Below are positions 5,234-39,800 of a stretch of DNA of 64,000 nucleotides, piece by piece (the first letter of the stretch is position 1; each line of letters begins with the position of its first letter). The position numbers were made by a program, and so were the translations under genes. The notes under the pieces are model-generated. The model had not been told where the DNA came from. It did no database searches and saw nothing but the letters and a program-made list of their open reading frames with translations. Source of the stretch: Sialis fuliginosa (taxonomy: Eukaryota; Arthropoda; Insecta; Megaloptera; Sialidae); the NCBI GenBank assembly GCA_961205875.1, contig OY540821.1:16430001-16494000 (forward strand), read 5' to 3'.

Positions 5234-7790
5234 TGAAAGACACTGAATTTGGTACTGTCATTACGTGTACAGTAAAGACTAAATGTTATTAACTTGATAG
5301 TCATTATATGGGTTTAACTCTACCTCCAATCTGTACCCCTGATATCTGTGTGTGAAGGTGTAATTTTGGTACTTCAGATTTTGCTGTAAGTTCGTTTTCT
5401 TTCTTGCTCACTTTTGTATGATCACTGGAACTGACTTAATTGTTTATTTCTGACTCAATATCGGTTCCGCGCGTCCTTCATAAGATGTATATTTGCAACG
5501 TTGCCTGTTGCGCTAGTTTATTAAATACATCAATTAATTGGAGTTATAATAGTTGCTTTTCTTTATCTTTATATTCCTCTTTGCTCAGCATGTTTCAATG
5601 CAAAAATAATGAACAATGATTGAATTATGAACACAAACAACAGCAACGGCTATTTCCAATTACATTTTACGAGACATTTGTCTTGAGTTGCTTTTCTTTA
5701 TCTTTACATTCCTCTTTGCTCAGTTGTTTATGGAACAAAGCATGCTTCAATGCAAAGATAATAGACGATGATTGAGTTATAAATACAAACAACAACGGCC
5801 ATTTCCAATTCCATTTTACGAACCATTTGTGTAACCAACTATCTTTGGTAATATATAATATAAATATAAATTTGTATATCCCTTTCTCCCACATTTTTAC
5901 TTTTTGTTCTTTACTTTTTGTATTGCTTCCTTCATATTTTGAAGCTGAAACAACGTTCACATTATTACTAACGTTGTTTTCGTTGTCACTGATATTTACA
6001 TTTACGTAAATATGATGAGATGCATTTTGCTCTTCAACAATTAACTGGAATCTTAAAAGTTGCTTTTCTTTATCTTTGCATTCCTCTTTGCTCAGTTGTT
6101 TATGGTACAAAGCATGTTTTATTGCAAAGATAATAGACAATGATTGAATTATGAATACAAACAACAACAATGGCCATTTTCAATTACATTTTACGAGCCA
6201 TTTGTTGCAAACAATCACTTGATGTGTAGGTTTGTCCATGCCACGTTCAAGCAACAAATTACAGTGCTACGGTTTTCGAGCTATAACAATACTGTTTATA
6301 ACTTGTATGTGCTGAACAAACTGACGACTTATAATTCACATTTATAATAATGTAAAGTAAATCCACAAACGGTTTTTGATAGTAAATTCTTTAGAATTGT
6401 TTGTTTGTTGTAAACAATCGCTCGATTCATCTGAACATTCTATCAAGTTTCTTTCATTATGGTCTATCTATTTTCTGAATTGTTTTCTTTAATAAGTGCT
6501 TAAATTTTTACATACAAAAATCAGCCACTTTCTCTCAGAGTGTTTCAAGAGTTATTGAGAGTTATGTTGTGTGGTCTATATAGTTATGTATGTTGCAAAT
6601 ATATTCAATGGCATTCTCGATGTAAAATATTTCATCTTCAATATCACTCTGCACTGCTTGTTCTACATCTACATTTATAATTGATTTGCCAGATCCTCGT
6701 AAATACCAAACAGTTATGTTGTGAGCTTACAAAGATCCTAGCTGTTATGAAAATTTAAACATAGCTATTCTGTTATATATCGAGACGAGTATATAACATT
6801 TTTGTTTTTTGTTCTTTACTTTTTGTATTGCTTCCTTCATATTTTGAAGCTGAAACAACGTTCACTTTATTACTAACGTTGTCATTGATATTTACATTTA
6901 CGTTAATATGGTGAGATACGTTTTGATCTTCAACAATTAACTGGAGTCTTAAAAGTTGCTTTTCTTTATCTTTGCATTCCTCTTTGCTCAGTTGTTTATG
7001 TTACAAAGCATGTTTCAATGAAAAGATAATTGACGATGATTGAGTCAACAATGGCCATTTCCAATTATATTTTATGAGCCATTTGTTGTTAACAATCACT
7101 TGATGTGTAGGTTTTTCCATGCCACTATTACAACCCTAATTTTTTTAAAGGTAATTAGTGCGATAAGGGTCTGTTGGTCCCCTTGTGAGAATAAAAAAAT
7201 ACAATAAATATGTATATCAACAATGTTTCAAATATCAATAATATAATTAAACTGTAAGTTATTGTTTTTTTTAAATCACACAAATACGCGTTTTTCTATC
7301 AATGGAATAAAATACTGATGAGGTGTACAAAGAAGTGGGCCTAACTCTACCTCCAATTTGTACCCCTGATGTCTGTGTGAGAAGGTGTAATTTTGGAACT
7401 TCAGGTTTTGCTGTAAGTTCGTTTCCTTTCTTGCTCACTTTTGTATGATCACTGGGACTGACTTAACTGTTTATTTCTAAGTCAATATCGGTTCCGTGCG
7501 TGCTTCATAAGATGTACATTTGCAACGTTGCCTGTGGCGCCGCTTCATTAAAAGTATAATCAATTAACTGGAGTCTTAATAGTTGATTTTCTTTATCTTC
7601 ACATTCTTCTTTGCTTAGTTGTTTAATATACAATGCATGTTTTAATGAAAAGATAATGGACGATGATTGAATTTTTTTTATGAGGTGAAAATTTTCAACA
7701 GCTGGTAGTGTGGGGCTTTAACCAGCTTAACCTATTCTATGTATATTTTATTTTTCTCTTTGAATAATGATCGCAAAGCTTCTTGTATCT
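5234..7790. repeat. Locally duplicated repeat unit of unknown origin
   Basis: A block at about 5306-5570 recurs in direct orientation at about 7335-7600 with roughly 85-90% visual identity. A shorter motif (TTCCTCTTTGCTCAGTTGTT and flanks) recurs near 5565, 5700, 6075, 6975 and 7595. On the minus strand it reads HKQLSKEECKDKEKQL, twice within one open frame (5667-6170). The conserved protein reading hints that the unit derives from a coding sequence. Copies elsewhere are frame-broken and I recognise no domain. Confidence 0.55.
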
Positions 7791-11286: not shown

Positions 11287-14200
11287 TTAATCACTATCAG
11301 AATCGTCATAAACATCCCTCTTATATTTAAATAATACTTGCACTGCCTTATAATTACCCGACCTAAACGCTGCTTGTAAAACCGTACAACCGTTAATATC
11401 TCTAATATTTGCATCGGCACCTCCATTCAACAAAACTCTCAACATATCACAATAACCATGCAAGGCAGCCCAATAGAGCGGCGTTCTATTATGACTATCA
11501 CCTACGTTTACATTACCACTTTTATTTAATAAGTAACTAGCAAAAGTGGCATTACGTCTCCACACTGCATGATGCAAATTACTAGGTAATACATCGTCAA
11601 TATTACTACCACTGTCGCTATCACTGTCTCCATAGTCATACTGATCATTGAAATGTCTCAAAAACAACTTAACTAATTTGTATCTACCAGTTCTATACGC
11701 TAATTTTAAAGCTCTCTCACCGTATCTATTAGCGATGTTAGCATCCACACCACGCTGTAATAATTCACGCACTACATCAGTGTTACCACAACTAGAAGCA
11801 TTATGTAATGCTGTATTGCCATGTACGTTCGTTATATTAATATCTGCACCTTTATCCAATAACATTCGCACTATATCTGTGCGATTTTTACCAGCTGCAA
11901 TATGAAGAGCTGTATAACCATTTGCATTAGCTATATTCACTGCATCTCCTTTGTCTAACAACATCTGCACTAAATCTATACGACCCCAACCAACAGCCCA
12001 ATGTAAAGGAGTATCACCATGTGTATTAACTTTGTTCGTATCTACACCTTTATCTAGCAACACACGAATTATGTCTGCTTGATTTGCACTAACAGCTTCG
12101 TGAAGAACTGTATTTCCATCTTTATTAAGTATGTTTACATCTGCACCTTTGTTTATTAATATATGGACTATGTCTACAAGACCTTTAATAGCGGCGTCAT
12201 GCAAAACCGTATTACCATCTTTGTTAATGTTAACTACGTTCGTATCTGCGCCTTTATCTAATAACATACTGACTATGTCAGTATGGCCCTTCATAACAGC
12301 ATAGTATAAAAGTGTCTCGCTGGATTTATTAATTAAAGACACATCTGCGTTTTTATCTATTAATAAACGGACAATATCTGTGTAACCTTTGCAAACAGCA
12401 AAATGCAAAGGTGTGTCGCCGTATGTATTTATTAAATTCACTTCTAACCCTTTATTTAACAGCTCACGCACTGTGTCCACGTGACCTTTACTGACAGCCC
12501 GATGCAGTATTGTGTTGCCACATAAATTAACTATGTTGATGTCTGCCCCTTTGTCTAATAGCGAACAAACTATATCTGTGTGGCCTTCACTAGCAGCAAC
12601 TTGCAAAGATGTGTGGCCATATGTATCAGTTATGTTAATATTTGCCCCATTCTCTAGTAGTATTTGTACTGTCTTTGTGTGACCCCACATAGTAGCCCAA
12701 TAGAGAGCTGTATACCCATATGTATTAACTTGGTCTATATTGACAGATTTATCCAGTAACTCAAGTACAATGTCTGCGTGACCCCCAATAGCCGCATAGT
12801 GCAAGGCAGTGTTACCTTCATCATCGCCATTGCCGAAGATGAACTGAAATGCTCTAGATTTTTTATTTATCTTATAATCAAAGCAATAATTTATTAGTTG
12901 TTTTGCAATCTCTATGTTTCCATTTTCGATTACTGTTTGAATAGGTGAGTAACATCTGTAACTGTCTGAATCATATGAAAGCATTTGTTTAATTAAATTT
13001 CGGTTATCTGCAAAAGAGTCTAATATAAAACTTACAGTTTCTGAGTTATTTTCAATTGCTGCAGTAAATAGTATACTTAATAAAGGATTGTGATCGTTGA
13101 CAACTTTGAAGAATTTTCTTAGTAAAGGTATTTGATCATATTTACTAGAAAAAAGTTTATTAATGCACAGTCTGTATTTTGCTTTTGTTTCTTTATCATT
13201 ATTAAGTTTTTCTTGGATGTAATTGTTAATGAATTTTCTTAGTACGGTTAAGCCATTTTGAATTAATACATTTTTAAACAATAATATGATAGTATGTTCT
13301 TCATCGAAGTGTCTTTGTATATAAGTTGATACAAAATACTCAGCGAATGTTCTGTGTACAAATTCTGCTTCTTGGAATTTAATTTGGTTAACAATACCTA
13401 TTTTCAGTATTCTATTTTTTGTATTTTCATCGAGTTTTTCTTTTATCTCATTTTCACCAAAAAGTAACTTCAACGCCAAATATTCGTGTTTTTTCTTATA
13501 AATTATTTGCAACTCTTCATCGTCGCCTTTAACAGAAATGTTTGTTTCATCTTGCTTTTTCTTTTCTGTTGAAAAAATTTTGAATTTCTTATCGACAAAT
13601 TTATTGAATAATTCAGATAAATTTAATATTTCATTTATATCTAATTCCTCTCCATTTTGATTATTTAATAATTCAGTGATAATTTTCAATAAAAGAGGAA
13701 CTCCCAGTAATTCTTTTAAATCGGATTTTTTATTAATATTTTTCAAAACTTTTTCCACATTTAACTTTTTTCGTTCCAGTCTATGATTCAAATATGCTAT
13801 TTGTTCTTCTTTAGTAAACGATTTTAAAGACATTGCAAACGTCGATGTTATTTCTTCTAAGCTAACTCTTTGAGCTGGTCTAGTCGTCACAAACAAACCG
13901 ATATATTTAAATTCATTTATTGATTTAATAAATTTAAAAACGATATCTTTATAATCAGGACAGACTTCATCAACACCGTCCAATAACAAATATATTTTAT
14001 TTTTATTTTTTAGTGCAAAATTTAAAATATTTTGTGAAAGTGCAGAAACGTTTGACAGTAATTTATTTTTTAGAAAATGTGTTGCGTCTTCTGAATTATC
14101 CAAAACACGTTTTTCGTTAAATACAAATGTGTGGTCATTCAGATTTAACCGAATGATAATATTAGTTGGGTAAATCGACTGAAGATTTTTAAATAAACTA

Positions 14201-16391
14201 CTCATAAGTAGAGATTTTCCCATTCCAGGATTATCAGATATTACCACTGTATTATTTTGTACATTACACAACTCATGTTCGTGTATTAAAAAATACGTGG
14301 ATTCATCTCCACAAACGGTTTGAAAATCAATATTATTTTTATTAATAAATTTCCTCAGATTAGTTGAATCGCCCTTAGTTTGATTCCATATTAAAATATT
14401 TTTATATTTTTTAAAGTGATGAATATTTTTATTCTGATTTTTTTTACACTGGGTTTTAAAATAATTCAGATTATCGATTATACACCATTCGTTAAAATCT
14501 TTTAGTTTATGTTCGTCTATCGCTACTGAATAATACAACTGTCTTTTTATATAAACGTCTAATTTATTTGTCTCAGAATTGTTGAAACTTATTTTTAGAT
14601 TTCTGCAGTCTTCGTCAAGAAAACATTTCAACACGTCTTCCGTTATTACTTGATTCAATTTCTCTACTTGTTTTTCTGTGGAATTAATTTGAAGAATTTC
14701 ACTAAAACTCGATATTTGTCCATTAAATAAAACACATTTTTTTTCTAAAACATATTGCTTCGAGTCATTACTTAACATATTGATTGTGTTTTCTCTATCT
14801 TCGTGAATTTGATGACAGTTCTGCATTTTAGGAATGATCTGGTCATTTGGAATTATGATAATATATTTTTGATCATTATTTTTCAAAATTTCAAACATAA
14901 GTAACTGGTCAATGTTTTTTATAATAATTATAAGAAGGTTAAATTGAGTTGTCGTTTTTAAATCAGTCACTTCTTTAATACTGTATACATGTTTTAATGT
15001 ATACTTATTTACACTAGGTTTATGTTCCCTCAGTTTTTTTATTTCTTTACATACTTTGTGAAGAGAAAATTCAGAATCGACAGATTTTATAGGTAATATC
15101 ATATTTTCAGATAGAAAGAACTCATACAAAGGTATATTGGTCTGAAATTCTAGGGCACTTTCTTCGTATTTATTTTCGTTATAATATTGAATTTCTTCTT
15201 GTGCAATTGAAATTAATTGACTTATTTCTTCTGAAGTTATTCCTTTTTGATTATATAAACACTCATCGACCTTATCAAGCAATTTACAACGTATTTTTTC
15301 CGTTGATTTTGGTAGAATATTTTCTATTTTCTCTTCGACAACATTTTTGATATCTTCAAGGCCTGGCTGATCAACGACAAACACTAATTTGTCCAAAAAA
15401 AATGTCCACACTTCTTCGGCGATGTCTGTATGTTTCAAAAATATACTTATATTTGTTTCATCGTTAAATTTGTACTGTGATTCTGAATCAAATACAGAAA
15501 TGCAAGAAACTTTTAAAGGCAGTAAAGTAATTTGTTCTTTTGTATCTTTCTTGTACCATTTTCCTAAGCACCCATCCTCTTCGAATTCAAAAGAGGCATT
15601 CGTGTATATAATGAAAAAACAATGTTCACTATTGTTGATGTTTTTAATAGATTTTATATACTTAATTAAATTAAAAGTTCCCTTTTTGTCATCGTAAAGA
15701 AGATTGCTAGTTTTGATCGAATTTTCAGTTTTTATTTTGTTCTTGATTTGTATCAGGAGACGTGTCCATTCGTCCTTTTCATTTTCTCTGTATTCGTAAA
15801 TAATGTCATCGAACATTCCAGCTTTTTCATCTTCTTGTTGTATTTTATATTCGTAATTCGGATTTGATAGTTTTTGTTCCTGGCCTTCCAGGCACAAATA
15901 CATGGCTACATTGATATGATAGTCAATGCCTCTTTTGTTCCCAGTAATACCTCTATCCTTTTCTTCCCATTTCTTTGCATCTATTGAAGAATAAATTATT
16001 ATACAATTTAATTTAAAACTTAAGTTTAGTATGAATATTAAATTATAATTATTTAAATAAAAATATGGATTTAGTCAACGAATTATTTTTAAATAATTTT
16101 TATCGATATCTTTTATAATCCACGTCTGGTGATAGAATTATGTGATATAAGAATATTAGTGGATTTAAGGGTTAGGGGGGGTGGGCTAAAGGGCATATAA
16201 AAAATAAAAAATTTCTACCTTTTCTTGCTTTTGCTTTAGGATATTTCGATGTTTTTGGTATAGTTTCTTCAGTTATTGCATCTGAAACATTAAATTATTA
16301 TTGTATATTTTTTTTCTTTCTTGTAAATCAAATATCATTAAGTATATAAGGGATTTTTATAAATACCTCGTGAATGGGATATTTTCGACAT
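11287..16391 (-). CDS. NACHT-ankyrin STAND protein with a nuclease-like N-terminus
   Basis: Three exons on the minus strand: 16391-16367 (MSKISHSR), 16282-16220 and 15980-11287. The introns are GT-AG and all codons join in frame (4782 nt, about 1593 aa). The first long-frame Met (15903) is internal, residue 56. Visible parts: (1) about residues 45-170, GIDYH, then FDDIIYEY (about 86) and LLIQIKNK (about 105), a D...QxK pattern like PD-(D/E)XK nucleases of the DUF4297/Cap4 type; (2) a NACHT ATPase with P-loop SDNPGMGKS (about 612-620) and Walker B YLLLDGVDE (about 694-702), then a winged-helix-like region ending in FVHRTFAEYFV; (3) about 15 ankyrin repeats from residue about 1080 to the end, with acidic DSDSD stretches near the C-terminus. 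STAND proteins of this plan act as signal-triggered switches. An immune or surveillance role is inference. The gene is open throughout and free of stops. Confidence 0.85.
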
Positions 16392-17301: not shown

Positions 17302-18360
17302 ATGCCATTCCCCTTATTACCATCATTAAATCCTAAACCAGTTGATTCAATTTGGTTCAGTGTAGATTCACCTTGTGACGAAGAAGCTGAGGTTCAACAA
17401 CTTGAACAAGAACACCAGGCATGGGTGAGTTAAATAATAAATATTATAGAAGAACAATTCTTATGAATTTTATTCTTTTAGCTCGATTCGATTGTTCTAA
17501 AAAATGCAGACTATACACCGATCGGAAAGATCACTTCAGAGGTTAGTGTAAATTGTTTTGATTATTAACCGAATACAAAATAACATTTTTTATATGTTTT
17601 TAGAATGCTGATGACACAGACGATGATGAAGAAGACGATGACAATGATGACGATGATGAAAGTGACAGTCGCGATGAAGAGGACGAAGATGAAATGGATA
17701 TGGAAATTTCATATGAAAGAAATTCACCCGTAGATGTAAGAATAAGAATGGTTCCAGGACATGGAGTGCGATAAATTTATATTAAATAAAAGAACACTTA
17801 TCATATTAGCATCTCAATTAGGTACTTTCATATTATATTTTGGCTAATACGGAGAGTCTGGGGGTCCTCTGTCAGATTTGTGAAAAATCATGTATATATA
17901 TTCAGAATAGAGTTGACGCGCATGCGTGACTAGATCAGGGTTACCAACTTTTATAAATCATCACGTTTAGCTGTGTTTTATTTAATAATTTAATATATAT
18001 TAATATAATTTAGTTTAAGTTAGTGAGGTTAGTTAGTTTCAGGTAGATTAGGTTAGGTTTTTGAATTTCTGTCTATGCACTAAATAATATATTAACATAG
18101 ATACAGCATAATCTACTCTAGTCTAACACATCAACACGTGATTTTCAGAATTTTTGACAGGGGACCCCCTGACTCTCCGTATTTACCTATATTTTTCAAT
18201 AGGTTTTTTTATTATTACATATTCTGTTGTAGTTTTCGAAAAAAGCAACCGTATATGCAATGATAAATATTTAAATTAATAATACACATATCTGCAAATG
18301 TCAAGCACATAATATCTTATTTTTAACTAGGAAATTGAAATAAACGTGGACGAAATTTAA
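17302..18360 (+). CDS. ANAPC15: Anaphase-promoting complex subunit 15
   Basis: Exons are 17302-17424 (41 codons), 17482-17541 (20) and 17604-17735 (44), and probably 18331-18360 (9 codons plus stop), giving 114 aa; vertebrate ANAPC15 is 121 aa. The N-terminus PFPLLPSLNPKPVDSIWFSV, then EEAEVQQLEQEHQAW and YTPIGK, match the family, followed by the typical long Asp/Glu tail. APC15 (Mnd2 family) promotes release of the mitotic checkpoint complex from the APC/C ubiquitin ligase. If exon 3 is not spliced at 17735 it reads on to a stop at 17774, giving an alternative tail. I prefer the fourth exon because NSPVD-EIEINVDEI continues the family's NESPDDGEVNEVDM-like ending. I added the ATG choice by homology: an upstream in-frame ATG at 17242 would prepend 20 unrelated residues. 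Confidence 0.85.
17846..18183. mobile_element. MITE inside the last ANAPC15 intron
   Basis: Inverted ends of about 30 bp: AATACGGAGAGTCTGGGGGT on the left and, inverted, AATACGGAGAGTCAGGGGGT on the right. It has no coding capacity. It lies between ANAPC15 exon 3 and the proposed exon 4. Confidence 0.7.
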
Positions 18361-24071: not shown

Positions 24072-25148
24072 ATGAAAATGTTTCCTGTAAAACAAGAAGT
24101 AATTAATATTAAAGAAGAAATGCAAGAGACTGATTGCTCTCAAGATGTTAAAACCTATGATGTATCTTCAATATACATCAAACAAGAATATTATTATGAG
24201 GTATGACTACTGGTTACGAGTATTTCTTTATAATTTCTTCACCATTTCTTCAATTATTTCTTGTTGTTTGTCAGTATCATATATATTTTAATGTATAAAG
24301 ATGTAATATAACTTTAATCGGTTAGCATGCGTCTGATAGATTTCAACGTACCAAATGTAAGTAAAAGCACTATCGTTTTTCAGGAAAACTTAGCAGATAA
24401 AGAAGAAAATCTATCTGAAACTGTAAATGACCCATTAAAAAATGAACCCCCTAAAGAAGAACCAAATTACAATGATATAAAAACAAACGACGAATTTAGA
24501 ACAGACAATCAGTGCGAGGAAATAGAAATGAATAATGATGAAAGTAGTGTTGACTTGGGAAAATATAAATGCGACCAATGCAACTTTATCTGTAAATATG
24601 AAAGTAGAATGACAACGCATAAATTGATACATTCTAATGAACGACCAAATAAATGCGATCAGTGTGAATATAGCAGTATATGGAAAAGTGAATTAATAAG
24701 ACATAAATTAACACATGGTAACGAACGACCTTTGAAATGCGACCAGTGTGAATACAGTAGCGTACGGAAATGTAACTTGATAAGACATAAATTAACACAC
24801 AGTAATGAACGGTTAAATAAATGTGATCAGTGTGAATACAGCTCTATATTGAAATATAACTTGATACGACATAAGTTAACGCACAGTAATGAACGATCGA
24901 ATAAATGCGATGAGTGTGAATACAGTTGTACATTGAAAAGTGCATTGATAAGACATAAATTAACACATACTAATGAGCGGCCATTTAAATGTGACCAGTG
25001 TGAACATAGCAGTAAGAATATGAGTTATTTGACAAAACATAAATTAACACATTCTATTGAACGGCCATTTAAATGCAATGAGTGTGAATATAGCAGTGCA
25101 CAGAAACGTAACTTGACATCACATAAATTAATACATAGGTACAAATGA
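24072..25148 (+). CDS. C2H2 zinc-finger protein with seven fingers
   Basis: Two exons, 24072-24200 (43 codons) and 24384-25148, with a phase-0 GT-AG intron, give 297 aa. Seven C-x2-C-x12-H-x3-H fingers run from about residue 125 to the end, joined by HSNERPNK/HGNERPLK linkers (variants of the TGEKP linker), as in DNA-binding finger arrays. The fingers are strikingly alike (CDQCEYSS...LIRHKLTH), suggesting recent tandem expansion. The N-terminus is acidic with VKQE, IKEE and IKQE, fitting SUMO-attachment consensus sites. Likely a nuclear sequence-specific DNA-binding protein of an insect-expanded family; target unknown. A second in-frame ATG at 24078 could also start it. The N-terminal exon resembles that of the short gene at 4238. 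Confidence 0.85.
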
Positions 25149-36800: not shown

Positions 36801-39800
36801 AATACAAATTAGCAAATATAGCTCTAGCGTTCTATTCTGGCCTTTTTGCTTTTGGGGGCTGGAATTTCTTGAATTTTGTAACAGAAGAATTACAAGATCC
36901 TTACAGGTAAGTCAATTAACACTTAGGTATCTTGTTTTTTATTATTATTATAGTTCGTACGACCGTTATAGATAAAATGAATTTTTAAAAATATAGCTTT
37001 GGGTTCAAAAAATGCATTACCACGGTTTAAAATTATTACAAGTTGAACATCTTCAGGGCTCTTCTAAAAGATGTACACTGCAATGTGTGACGAAACGTTG
37101 GCCGATAAATCGACCAAATTGACGCGGCTTACACCCAGAAGCCAAGATTTATGTATACTAAAATCGTTAAATTTTAGGGTTGTCTTCTTTTTATAAGGGA
37201 AAATATTATTCTATTAAAATATTAGACTCATGTTCGATCCTAATAGGTTTAAAAATTGATCCAGAGTTAATAAGTTATTTTATAACCAATAAATTGTAGT
37301 TTATTAAGACAATTTTATGCTATTATAAAGTTATAAAACTCTATTTTACTTTTAAACGTTTTTTTTTATGTAGGTATTTCTAATTCTAATACAAAAAAAA
37401 ATATAAAAAAACATTTATGTTTTGATTAAAATTAAAAACCAATAAAACTTCTCTATAGATGTAATCTGTATTAAAGAAAAAAAAAGTACGTGCATATTTT
37501 CACGTAGAAATATCATATTTTTTGTCTGTCTAAATACAAGAGAGTGCCCCAAATATAATTTTTCACAGGGGGCGCGAAGGGACTAAAACAAGACTAAAAA
37601 AAATTTTTTACCACGTCAAAATCTATAAACATACCAGTGAAATTTAACCCTTTTTCTTATTTTTTCTTCTAAATCAAAAATGGTGCTTGCAGGGGGCTTT
37701 AAAGCAAATCCAGAAAAAAAAGTGTGTGAGGTATCAAAATGTAGATCTCAGTCAGTATAATTTGATCCTATTTTTTATTTTTTTCTAACTCAAAAATGGC
37801 GCCAGCAGGGGGGTAAAAGTAGTATTTTATTTTGTCCCCCTCTAACTCGGTAACTACTGGCTCAAAAAATCTGAAAAAAAATTGGTAACGAGACTTTGGT
37901 GGGAATAACAACGACAAATACTAAAGTCAACAATATAATTTTAAATTTTGAAGGGGTGTCATATAACTTTTTATTTTTATTTTGACATTTAGGCATGTGG
38001 GGTGTCAAAATGTAGATCTCAATTAGTAGAATATGATCTTATTTTTATATTTTTTCTAACTCAAAAATAGCGCCAGCAGGGGGGTAAAAGTAGTATTTTA
38101 TTTTGTCCCCTCCCCTCTAACTCGGTAACTACTGGCTCAAAAAATCTAAAAAAAAATTGGTAACGAGACTTTGGTGGGACTAATAACGACAAATGTTAAA
38201 GTCAACAATATAATGTTAAATTTTGGAGGGGTGTCAGAACTTTTTATTTTTATTTTGACATCTAGGCATGTGGGGTGTCAAAATGTAGATCTCAATTAGT
38301 AGAATATGATCCTATTTTTTTTTTTTCTAACTCAAAAATGCACCTGTAAGTAGGGCTTCGAACCGTTATTTTTTTCGTTTCGGTTTTTGTTCCGGTTCGA
38401 GTAAAAAAAATATATTTCGGTTCGGTTCCGGTTTTCATTCCGAAACGGTTTTTCCGGTTTTTTCGGTTTTTGGTTCAGCTCCGAGTGATTAATTAAAAAA
38501 AAAATTATTTGTATTAAAAAAATTTTTTCTACCATAATTTAGAACATTTTATGGTACTTGTATGATAATCTGAACGACAATTGAAGTGGGAAATAAGATC
38601 ATGTTAACGCGCGTATTTTAACATGTACTGAACCGTAAAATCCGATATTTTTATTTCGGTTCTGTTCCGGTTTTCGTTCCGGCAAAAAATAACGGTTTTT
38701 CCGGTTTTCAGTTCAGTTCCGGTTCGAATTCCTGCCTGTAAATGGTTCCAAACAGTCCACGTAGTACGTATTTCGGAACCCTTATGTCTTGACTGTTATT
38801 TTTATGATTTAGGGTTAGAGTAATAATTAAATAAATATTGAAATTCCATTCCGACCACAACTGGTATGGTATAAATTGCTATACTCGTAGCTTGGAGGCG
38901 TAAAGTAACAGGTTGTTGTTACAGGTATGTTTAATGATGTCCTTGGTGTAGATACCGTTGAATAGAAAGCTTGTATTTATTCCAAAAAAACGTATCTTCT
39001 TCATATAATCACCCAAACCGGATTTAACAAAATGTATTATAGGTTTCGATTTGCGAGATAAAAAATATTTGACTATTTCATAATGATTTTCTTTTGTTGG
39101 ATTAATTTTTTATATCAGTGGCGTAGTAAGAAAAAAATTCTGTGGGGGATAAATTTATTTTGAACTGATGTGTTCTCAAAACATCCGTTTTTTAGGGTTC
39201 CGAAGAAACCCAATTAATCTCACTTTGTCGTCCGTCCGTCCGTCCTTTTCACTCAAAGCCAAATAGCTCGTAAACTATATAAGCTGGAAACTTGAAATTT
39301 TTACTGAACATATAAAATGACACCCTCTAGTTATTTTATAACACTGAATATTTCAGGGGGAGGGAGGCTTGTTACCAACCCCTCCCCACCCATGACTACG
39401 CCACTGCTTTATATTATGCAGGATTAATCAGGTTTTTTAAATTATATGCATATTTCTAAGTCCAGCTCTGGTTATTAAAAATAGAAATACATGAAGGACA
39501 TATTTATTATTTTTATATTAACGCCACAGTAATTAATTACTGCAAAGAACAATTTGTTTTAATGCGGTGATGACGCAAACATGGCGGGTCTTATCAAATT
39601 CTCAATTGATTGCATTTGGTTACATAATAATCTATTAATTATTTTTTTAATGGTTTAAATGATATATAAACATCTTAAAAACGTTATTTTTAAGATGTTT
39701 TTTTTAGAGCTCACTTTCCAAAGTGTCTCTGAACTAAGATAGTGAAAGTGGTGAAAAATGAATGATAATAAGTATATGGTAATGTAAAGGGAACCGTAAT

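Follow-up and report, generated by a model that had tools for sequence, protein, structure and literature searches.

A Sialis fuliginosa family of NACHT-ankyrin proteins with an N-terminal domain related to the bacterial Cap4 nuclease

We analyzed a stretch of 64,000 nucleotides of the Sialis fuliginosa genome (the window; positions 16430001-16494000 of its contig, C13, in an assembly of 392,097,322 bases and 20 contigs), which carries on its minus strand, at 16391-11287, a three-exon gene for a protein of about 1593 amino acids composed of an N-terminal domain (hereafter N-domain), a NACHT ATPase of the STAND class (signal transduction ATPases with numerous domains), and ankyrin repeats. The exon joins were predicted by eye from the sequence, and both introns run from GT to AG and are in phase 1. 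A sequence-only reading made earlier had joined two short upstream exons to the main frame, and these joins fit in coordinates, intron borders, and phase. The spliced product begins MSKISHSRDAITEETIPKTSKYPKAKARKDAKKWEEKDRGITGNKRGIDYH, and its features in the window are as follows.

16367..16391, minus strand: exon 1, with the start codon, encoding MSKISHSR plus one base; GT donor, phase 1, frame joins.
16219..16281, minus strand: exon 2, 63 bases, a lysine/threonine-rich leader; TTTCAG acceptor, GTAGAA donor, phase 1.
11287..15980, minus strand: exon 3, the main coding exon, 1563 full codons and a stop; an open frame, recovered again in the assembly.
15364..15954, minus strand: N-domain, a relative of Cap4_nuclease (PF14130) according to alignments A1 and A5, hhalign against Cap4, and the PDB profile search; core G47, E79, D87, D88, Q107, K109.
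15742..15813, minus strand: FDD ... QIK, presumed metal-binding core, invariant in all 24 rows of A1 and of A5 and aligned with FDD ... QIK of Cap4.
13774..14250, minus strand: NACHT (STAND) ATPase with the P-loop GMGKS and LLLDGVDE (Pfam PF05729, 33.1 bits).
11314..12831 (approximate limits), minus strand: ankyrin array, the presumed sensor (Pfam ankyrin models, up to 361 bits).

On the 1593-residue product, GIDYH occupies residues 47-51, the core continues with E79, F86-D87-D88, Q107, and K109, and the GMGKS P-loop starts at 615. The GIDYH, FDD, QIK, and GMGKS motifs and the NACHT domain of the earlier reading were all found on the minus strand; its FDD motif is present, but the residues numbered there D86-D88 are F86-D87-D88. 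The NACHT score exceeds the Pfam cut-off of 26.7 bits, and in the ankyrin region PF00023 matches 12 stretches and PF13637 matches 14, which makes the previous count of about 15 repeats roughly right. Pfam returned nothing convincing for the N-terminal part of the protein (the best match being an unrelated model, E 0.033), and leucine-rich repeats (LRR) were absent from the 11 families in the Pfam scan that gave NACHT and the ankyrins.

The gene had been described as one odd protein, whereas it proved to be one of a family. When the genome of the insect was searched with the N-domain, all 31 candidates were scored and 27 matched, comprising 21 strong copies (the one in the window included; E 3.3e-39 or better, without a stop in the matched stretch), three distant copies, and three short fragments on contig C7 that were left out of alignment A1. 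These 21 strong copies rule out a lone pseudogene, and a bacterial contaminant is ruled out by the 17.9-Mb contig together with neighboring genes that look intron-bearing by eye. With the whole protein as query, the assembly yielded at least 64 matching pieces, a lower bound because 30 of 326 candidates were scored. Among the NACHT-type paralogue frames, 19 of 20 keep the P-loop, which is missing only from the N-terminal piece of the split copy L134; ankyrins were seen by a crude repeat pattern in 17 of the 20 strong paralogue frames, and three of the 20 are short or split. L134 itself (C10:1626200-1635500) lies in two frames and looks broken, and it retains FDD...QxK. The ratio of nonsynonymous to synonymous substitution rates (dN/dS) was calculated for the 32 pairs of copies sharing more than 75% identity in the N-domain; the copy in the window belongs to none of these pairs. 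The ratio was 0.12-0.59 in 29 pairs, about 1 in two, and undefined in one. The family is thus under selection against amino-acid change.

The three distant copies, L173 and L174 on contig C5 and L175 on C8, lie in frames of 1635, 1629, and 2604 amino acids, respectively. By Pfam, L173 contains OTU, NB-ARC, and tetratricopeptide repeat (TPR) domains and L175 contains NB-ARC and TPR, while the OTU-like start of L175 and the make-up of L174 were read from the sequence by eye. In one genome the N-domain therefore accompanies either of two STAND ATPases (NACHT or NB-ARC) and either of two repeat types (ankyrin or TPR), as expected of an interchangeable effector.

Conservation within the N-domain is concentrated on a small set of residues. 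In A1, which aligns 24 copies from this genome with identity to the window protein down to 26%, the E, FDD, and QxK residues are invariant in all rows, and the invariant positions include G47, E79, F86, D87, D88, Q107, and K109. The rows were located with the pattern G..[YF][HQ]...[KM]FDD, which each of the 23 open frames sought contained; G and FDD therefore cannot count as independent evidence, and E and QxK lie outside the pattern. In the Rickettsiales domains described below, found by BLAST without the pattern, Q-x-K is present in 21 of 21 extracted copies and FDD in 20, and in A5, an alignment of insect and Rickettsiales rows, E, FDD, and QxK are again invariant (24/24). The bare FDD...QxK pattern is common at the DNA level, with at least 120 stretches in viral contigs; among the matches listed, no in-frame stretch was preceded by G..[YF][QH] within 70 residues.

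We compared a profile of the family (A2) with 84,980 species genomes and obtained 46 candidate stretches and one relative, from Candidatus Mesenet longicola (Rickettsiales, Anaplasmataceae). This gene (L186; contig BNGT01000060.1, 2824-6051) is intronless and encodes 1076 amino acids with N-domain, NACHT, and ankyrins in the same order; its NACHT scores 23.0 bits, under the Pfam cut-off, and it has two PF00023 stretches. BLASTP of the window protein against it, in a search space of this one protein, aligned the NACHT (E 6e-20, 26% identity), the N-domain (E 1.2e-9, 24% identity), and also the ankyrins. The 6.5-kb Mesenet contig also has, by eye, a transposase-like end. The first 520 residues of the Mesenet protein, counted from the N-domain, matched 34 of 343 genomes of its order, some of these matches being short or outside the N-domain. 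The match in one of them, genome G023, is 92% identical and lies in a frame of equal length, and very long open frames (2621-4506 amino acids) with the domain are present in G023, G040, G034, and other genomes of the order. We extracted 21 Rickettsiales N-domains and included 11 in A5; those left out (L187, L188, L189, L194, L195, L197, L199, L201, L204, and L206) are mostly copies, near-copies, or partial. Identity between the insect OTU-type copies and the Mesenet domain reaches about 60% in the best segment. A tree was built from 33 rows, each trimmed to its first 150 or 135 residues. The insect NACHT-ankyrin copies (98/100) and Cap4 (100/100) are separate groups in it, and the OTU-type insect copies and Rickettsiales rows are intermixed where branching lacks resolution, so that the tree gives no direction of transfer.

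Outside this order, the Mesenet N-domain had no match in phages or plasmids, and scans of viral contigs gave no relative; one viral-contig locus (L002), covering 28 residues, was taken for chance. The window protein had no tblastn match in phages at E 10, and in plasmids it matched nine E. coli records (E 0.01-0.2) in the NACHT region only. In 50 kb of phage WO sequence, gwv_1093 aligned through ankyrins among the matches listed, and the first 1000 residues of the exon 3 product gave no match below E 3.

The relation of the N-domain to Cap4 was traced through its relatives. With the single window protein, phmmer against PDB gave nothing usable. The A1 profile had three matches with E < 10 among 177,635 PDB sequences: Cap4 7yib (E 0.027), Cap4 7yia (E 0.36; the same chain, in which the lysine aligned here is A), and an unrelated chain from a plant (E 1.3). 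The A5 profile did not improve the match (E 0.033). Weak as it is, the PDB match falls on Cap4, the family that had been named before the search. PF14130 was matched by two of the 24 A5 rows, the better being the Rickettsiales copy L203 (E 8.5e-6; 26.5 bits against a cut-off of 26.2), and an NCBIfam scan of A5 gave stray matches only. Nine bacterial Cap4 N-domains (A3), taken from 27 plasmid records with a Cap4 match, share an invariant G, E, FDD, and Q-x-K (9/9). With hhalign, A1 aligned to A3 over 157 columns with the G-x-x-Y helix outside (probability 73, P 3e-5), and A5 aligned to it over 186 columns with the helix included (probability 93.6, P 2.1e-7). A second run with other match columns gave A1 a probability of 36 and a score of 32.3 (31.2 with the 20 NACHT-ankyrin rows alone), against best control scores of 21.7 in 200 column shuffles and 11.3 on reversal; for A5 the second run gave a probability of 91.9 and a score of 49.0, against 25.9 in 150 shuffles and 15.8 on reversal. 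As judged from these profile comparisons, the N-domain is homologous to Cap4 through its relatives and aligns with it over nearly the whole length. The likeness to Cap4/DUF4297, which the sequence-only reading allowed might be coincidental, does not look like coincidence once the relatives are added.

The arthropod NACHT-ankyrin class as such is already published: Bordenstein and Bordenstein (2016; PMC5062602) describe NACHT homologues across arthropods and a NACHT-ankyrin-latrotoxin protein of phage WO, nested within the more diverse arthropod set and read as horizontal transfer. In two further reports, bacterial STAND systems with restriction endonuclease effectors are described together with repeated acquisition of STAND NTPases by eukaryotes (PMC8195603), and Rickettsiales cif genes are described with PD-(D/E)XK nucleases, OTU, and ankyrins, Mesenet being credited with the ability to cause incompatibility in an insect host (PMC12445526). 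Judged by titles and the starts of abstracts, with most subscription journals outside the scope, none of the papers found describes an arthropod NACHT protein with a Cap4-type nuclease, which is not proof of novelty. A literature hit for NACHT in lacewing venom was discarded, as only the author name Nachtigall had matched.

Taking these results together, we consider it somewhat better than an even chance that the gene encodes an intracellular receptor resembling the NOD-like receptors (NLRs), with a Cap4-type PD-(D/E)XK nuclease as its effector domain. In such a receptor, the ankyrin array would keep the protein shut or bind a ligand; once the array is engaged, the NACHT ATPase would bind ATP and oligomerize, and the clustering would join N-domains in which D87/D88, together with E79, and Q107-x-K109 would make up metal-dependent DNA-cutting sites. 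Cutting might then kill or disable an infected cell, or destroy foreign DNA. Several observations weigh against this reading. Stops or frame breaks past the N-domain occur in several insect copies (C14:166613, C11:177987, C14:5825969, and C10:1628727-1634742), and dN/dS is about 1 in two of the 32 pairs. The Rickettsiales copy L199 has FDY for FDD, possibly a loss of the metal site, and in the G-x-x-Y-Q motif most insect copies have H for Q. The window N-domain alone does not match PF14130 up to E 10 in Pfam, and in PADLOC the window protein gave three models, all in the ankyrin region and none of the Cap4 or Avs kind. Only two of the 24 A1 rows match PF14130 (best E 0.063), and unrelated Pfam families outscore it in single A1 rows (best E 0.00053); among 10 members scanned singly, L203 alone reached the cut-off, and narrowly. 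The PDB matches are not significant alone, Cap4 was the sole PD-(D/E)XK family covered by the hhalign comparison, and a single-sequence AlphaFold model, with a pLDDT (predicted local distance difference test) score of 32, was unusable for the fold.

Some of these observations would also be expected if the motif likeness were due to chance and the N-domain had an unrelated fold, namely the lack of a profile match for the window N-domain alone, the unrelated families that outrank PF14130 in single rows, and the unusable AlphaFold model. However, the hhalign scores lie above all shuffled and reversed controls and the relative L203 passes the PF14130 cut-off, and we regard chance as very improbable. 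A different alternative accepts the homology and takes the N-domain as a relative of the Cap4 fold that does not cut, serving as a DNA- or RNA-binding or dimerization module in a NACHT-ankyrin signaling protein. PD-(D/E)XK folds have been reused without catalysis, and the change of Y-Q to Y-H or F-H in most insect copies would suit such a module. Against this stand E79, D87, D88, Q107, and K109, which are invariant in all 24 rows even at 26% identity, and the same E, FDD, and QxK in the nine bacterial Cap4 domains, and we think this alternative unlikely, if worth keeping in view. The N-domain, with NACHT and ankyrins or with OTU and TPR, might instead derive from host-manipulation genes of Rickettsiales, the insect copies being domesticated symbiont-handling genes or remnants of transfer. 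The intronless three-part gene of Mesenet, the presence of the domain in 34 of 343 genomes of the order, in part in very long frames, the position of the OTU-type insect copies among Rickettsiales rows and their identity to the Mesenet domain, and NACHT transfer between arthropods and phage WO (PMC5062602) all speak for such an origin. The insect NACHT-ankyrin copies, however, form a group of their own (98/100) on a long branch, the phage NACHT is nested in a more diverse arthropod set (PMC5062602), and the present tree does not resolve the direction; a symbiont origin therefore seems to us rather improbable.

The nuclease-armed receptor remains our preferred reading, and the sequence-only interpretation as a whole appears partly supported, holding for homology and layout. 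A broader proposal, to which we would give somewhat less than even confidence, is that insects keep a large and expanding set of Avs-like receptors, each combining a Cap4-type DNase, a STAND trigger, and a variable repeat sensor, in which the effector has been shuffled between NACHT-ankyrin and NB-ARC-TPR proteins and exchanged with Rickettsiales symbionts, so that host and symbiont would share a weapon. Insects are generally described as having no NLR immunity. If the proposal is true, about 21 receptor-like genes in which a bacterial-type nuclease replaces the death-fold adaptor would give animals a second form of NLR, one that itself cuts, and would link animal immunity to bacterial Avs/CBASS defense (CBASS, cyclic-oligonucleotide-based antiphage signaling system) in a way that can be tested. 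Because the layout is common to a Rickettsiales symbiont, it would also be tied to the conflict between insect and symbiont.

Around the gene, inspection by eye suggests that neighboring open frames may encode an amino-acid transporter, a PX-domain protein, a thymidylate synthase, and an RNF216-like ligase. A gene that apparently starts at 17303 and runs onward on the plus strand (by eye) lies head to head with the NACHT-ankyrin gene, about 0.9 kb from its start codon, and the short stretch between them may be a shared promoter. Elsewhere in the window there are a 271-bp unit repeated 2.3 times with 91% matches (37725-38339), a zinc-finger-like array gene with an internal 84-base repeat (24327-25148, plus strand), and an open frame with an internal duplication (5667-6179, minus strand), both halves of which end KHAL-HKQLSKEECKDKEKQL.

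Among known systems, the NACHT-ankyrin proteins of arthropods and phage WO are similar in that NACHT precedes the ankyrins in the phage WO protein, as in the window protein, and NACHT homologues occur across arthropods (PMC5062602); the word nuclease is absent from the main text of that paper, and the window protein had no tblastn match in phages. The Mesenet protein has the same three parts in order and differs in its lack of introns, its two PF00023 stretches, its NACHT score under the cut-off, and its identity of only 24% and 26%. Animal NLRs, in which as a rule NACHT is followed by LRR, have the mid-chain NACHT switch in common with the window protein, which instead of LRR has ankyrins and has no clear death-fold N-terminus, the Death and Atypical_Card models reaching only E 0.045 or worse in single A1 rows. 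Cap4, a CBASS effector, has an N-domain of about 200 amino acids with G-x-x-Y-Q/H, E, FDD, and Q-x-K in the same order as the window family; we take DUF4297 to be linked to Cap4_nuclease. The nine bacterial Cap4 proteins are mostly annotated as SAVED-domain proteins, whereas the window protein has NACHT and ankyrins, and SAVED, which marks the Cap4 of CBASS, was not among the 11 families in its Pfam scan. With respect to PF14130, the window protein lies below the curated cut-off, while full-length profile homology and FDD...QxK with an upstream E are found. Avs proteins recognize conserved phage proteins and consist of a nuclease N-domain, a STAND ATPase, and C-terminal repeats. A nuclease-like N-domain, a STAND ATPase, and C-terminal repeats are common to Avs and the window protein, which differs in having an ankyrin array and an animal host and in matching no Avs model in PADLOC. 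The Avs-like layout proposed in the sequence-only reading is repeated across the many copies of the family and in an insect-dwelling bacterium. Membership of Avs or of CBASS finds no backing, neither an Avs model nor SAVED having been matched. On the sequence evidence, the protein would be a member of neither Avs nor CBASS Cap4, yet it is laid out like Avs.

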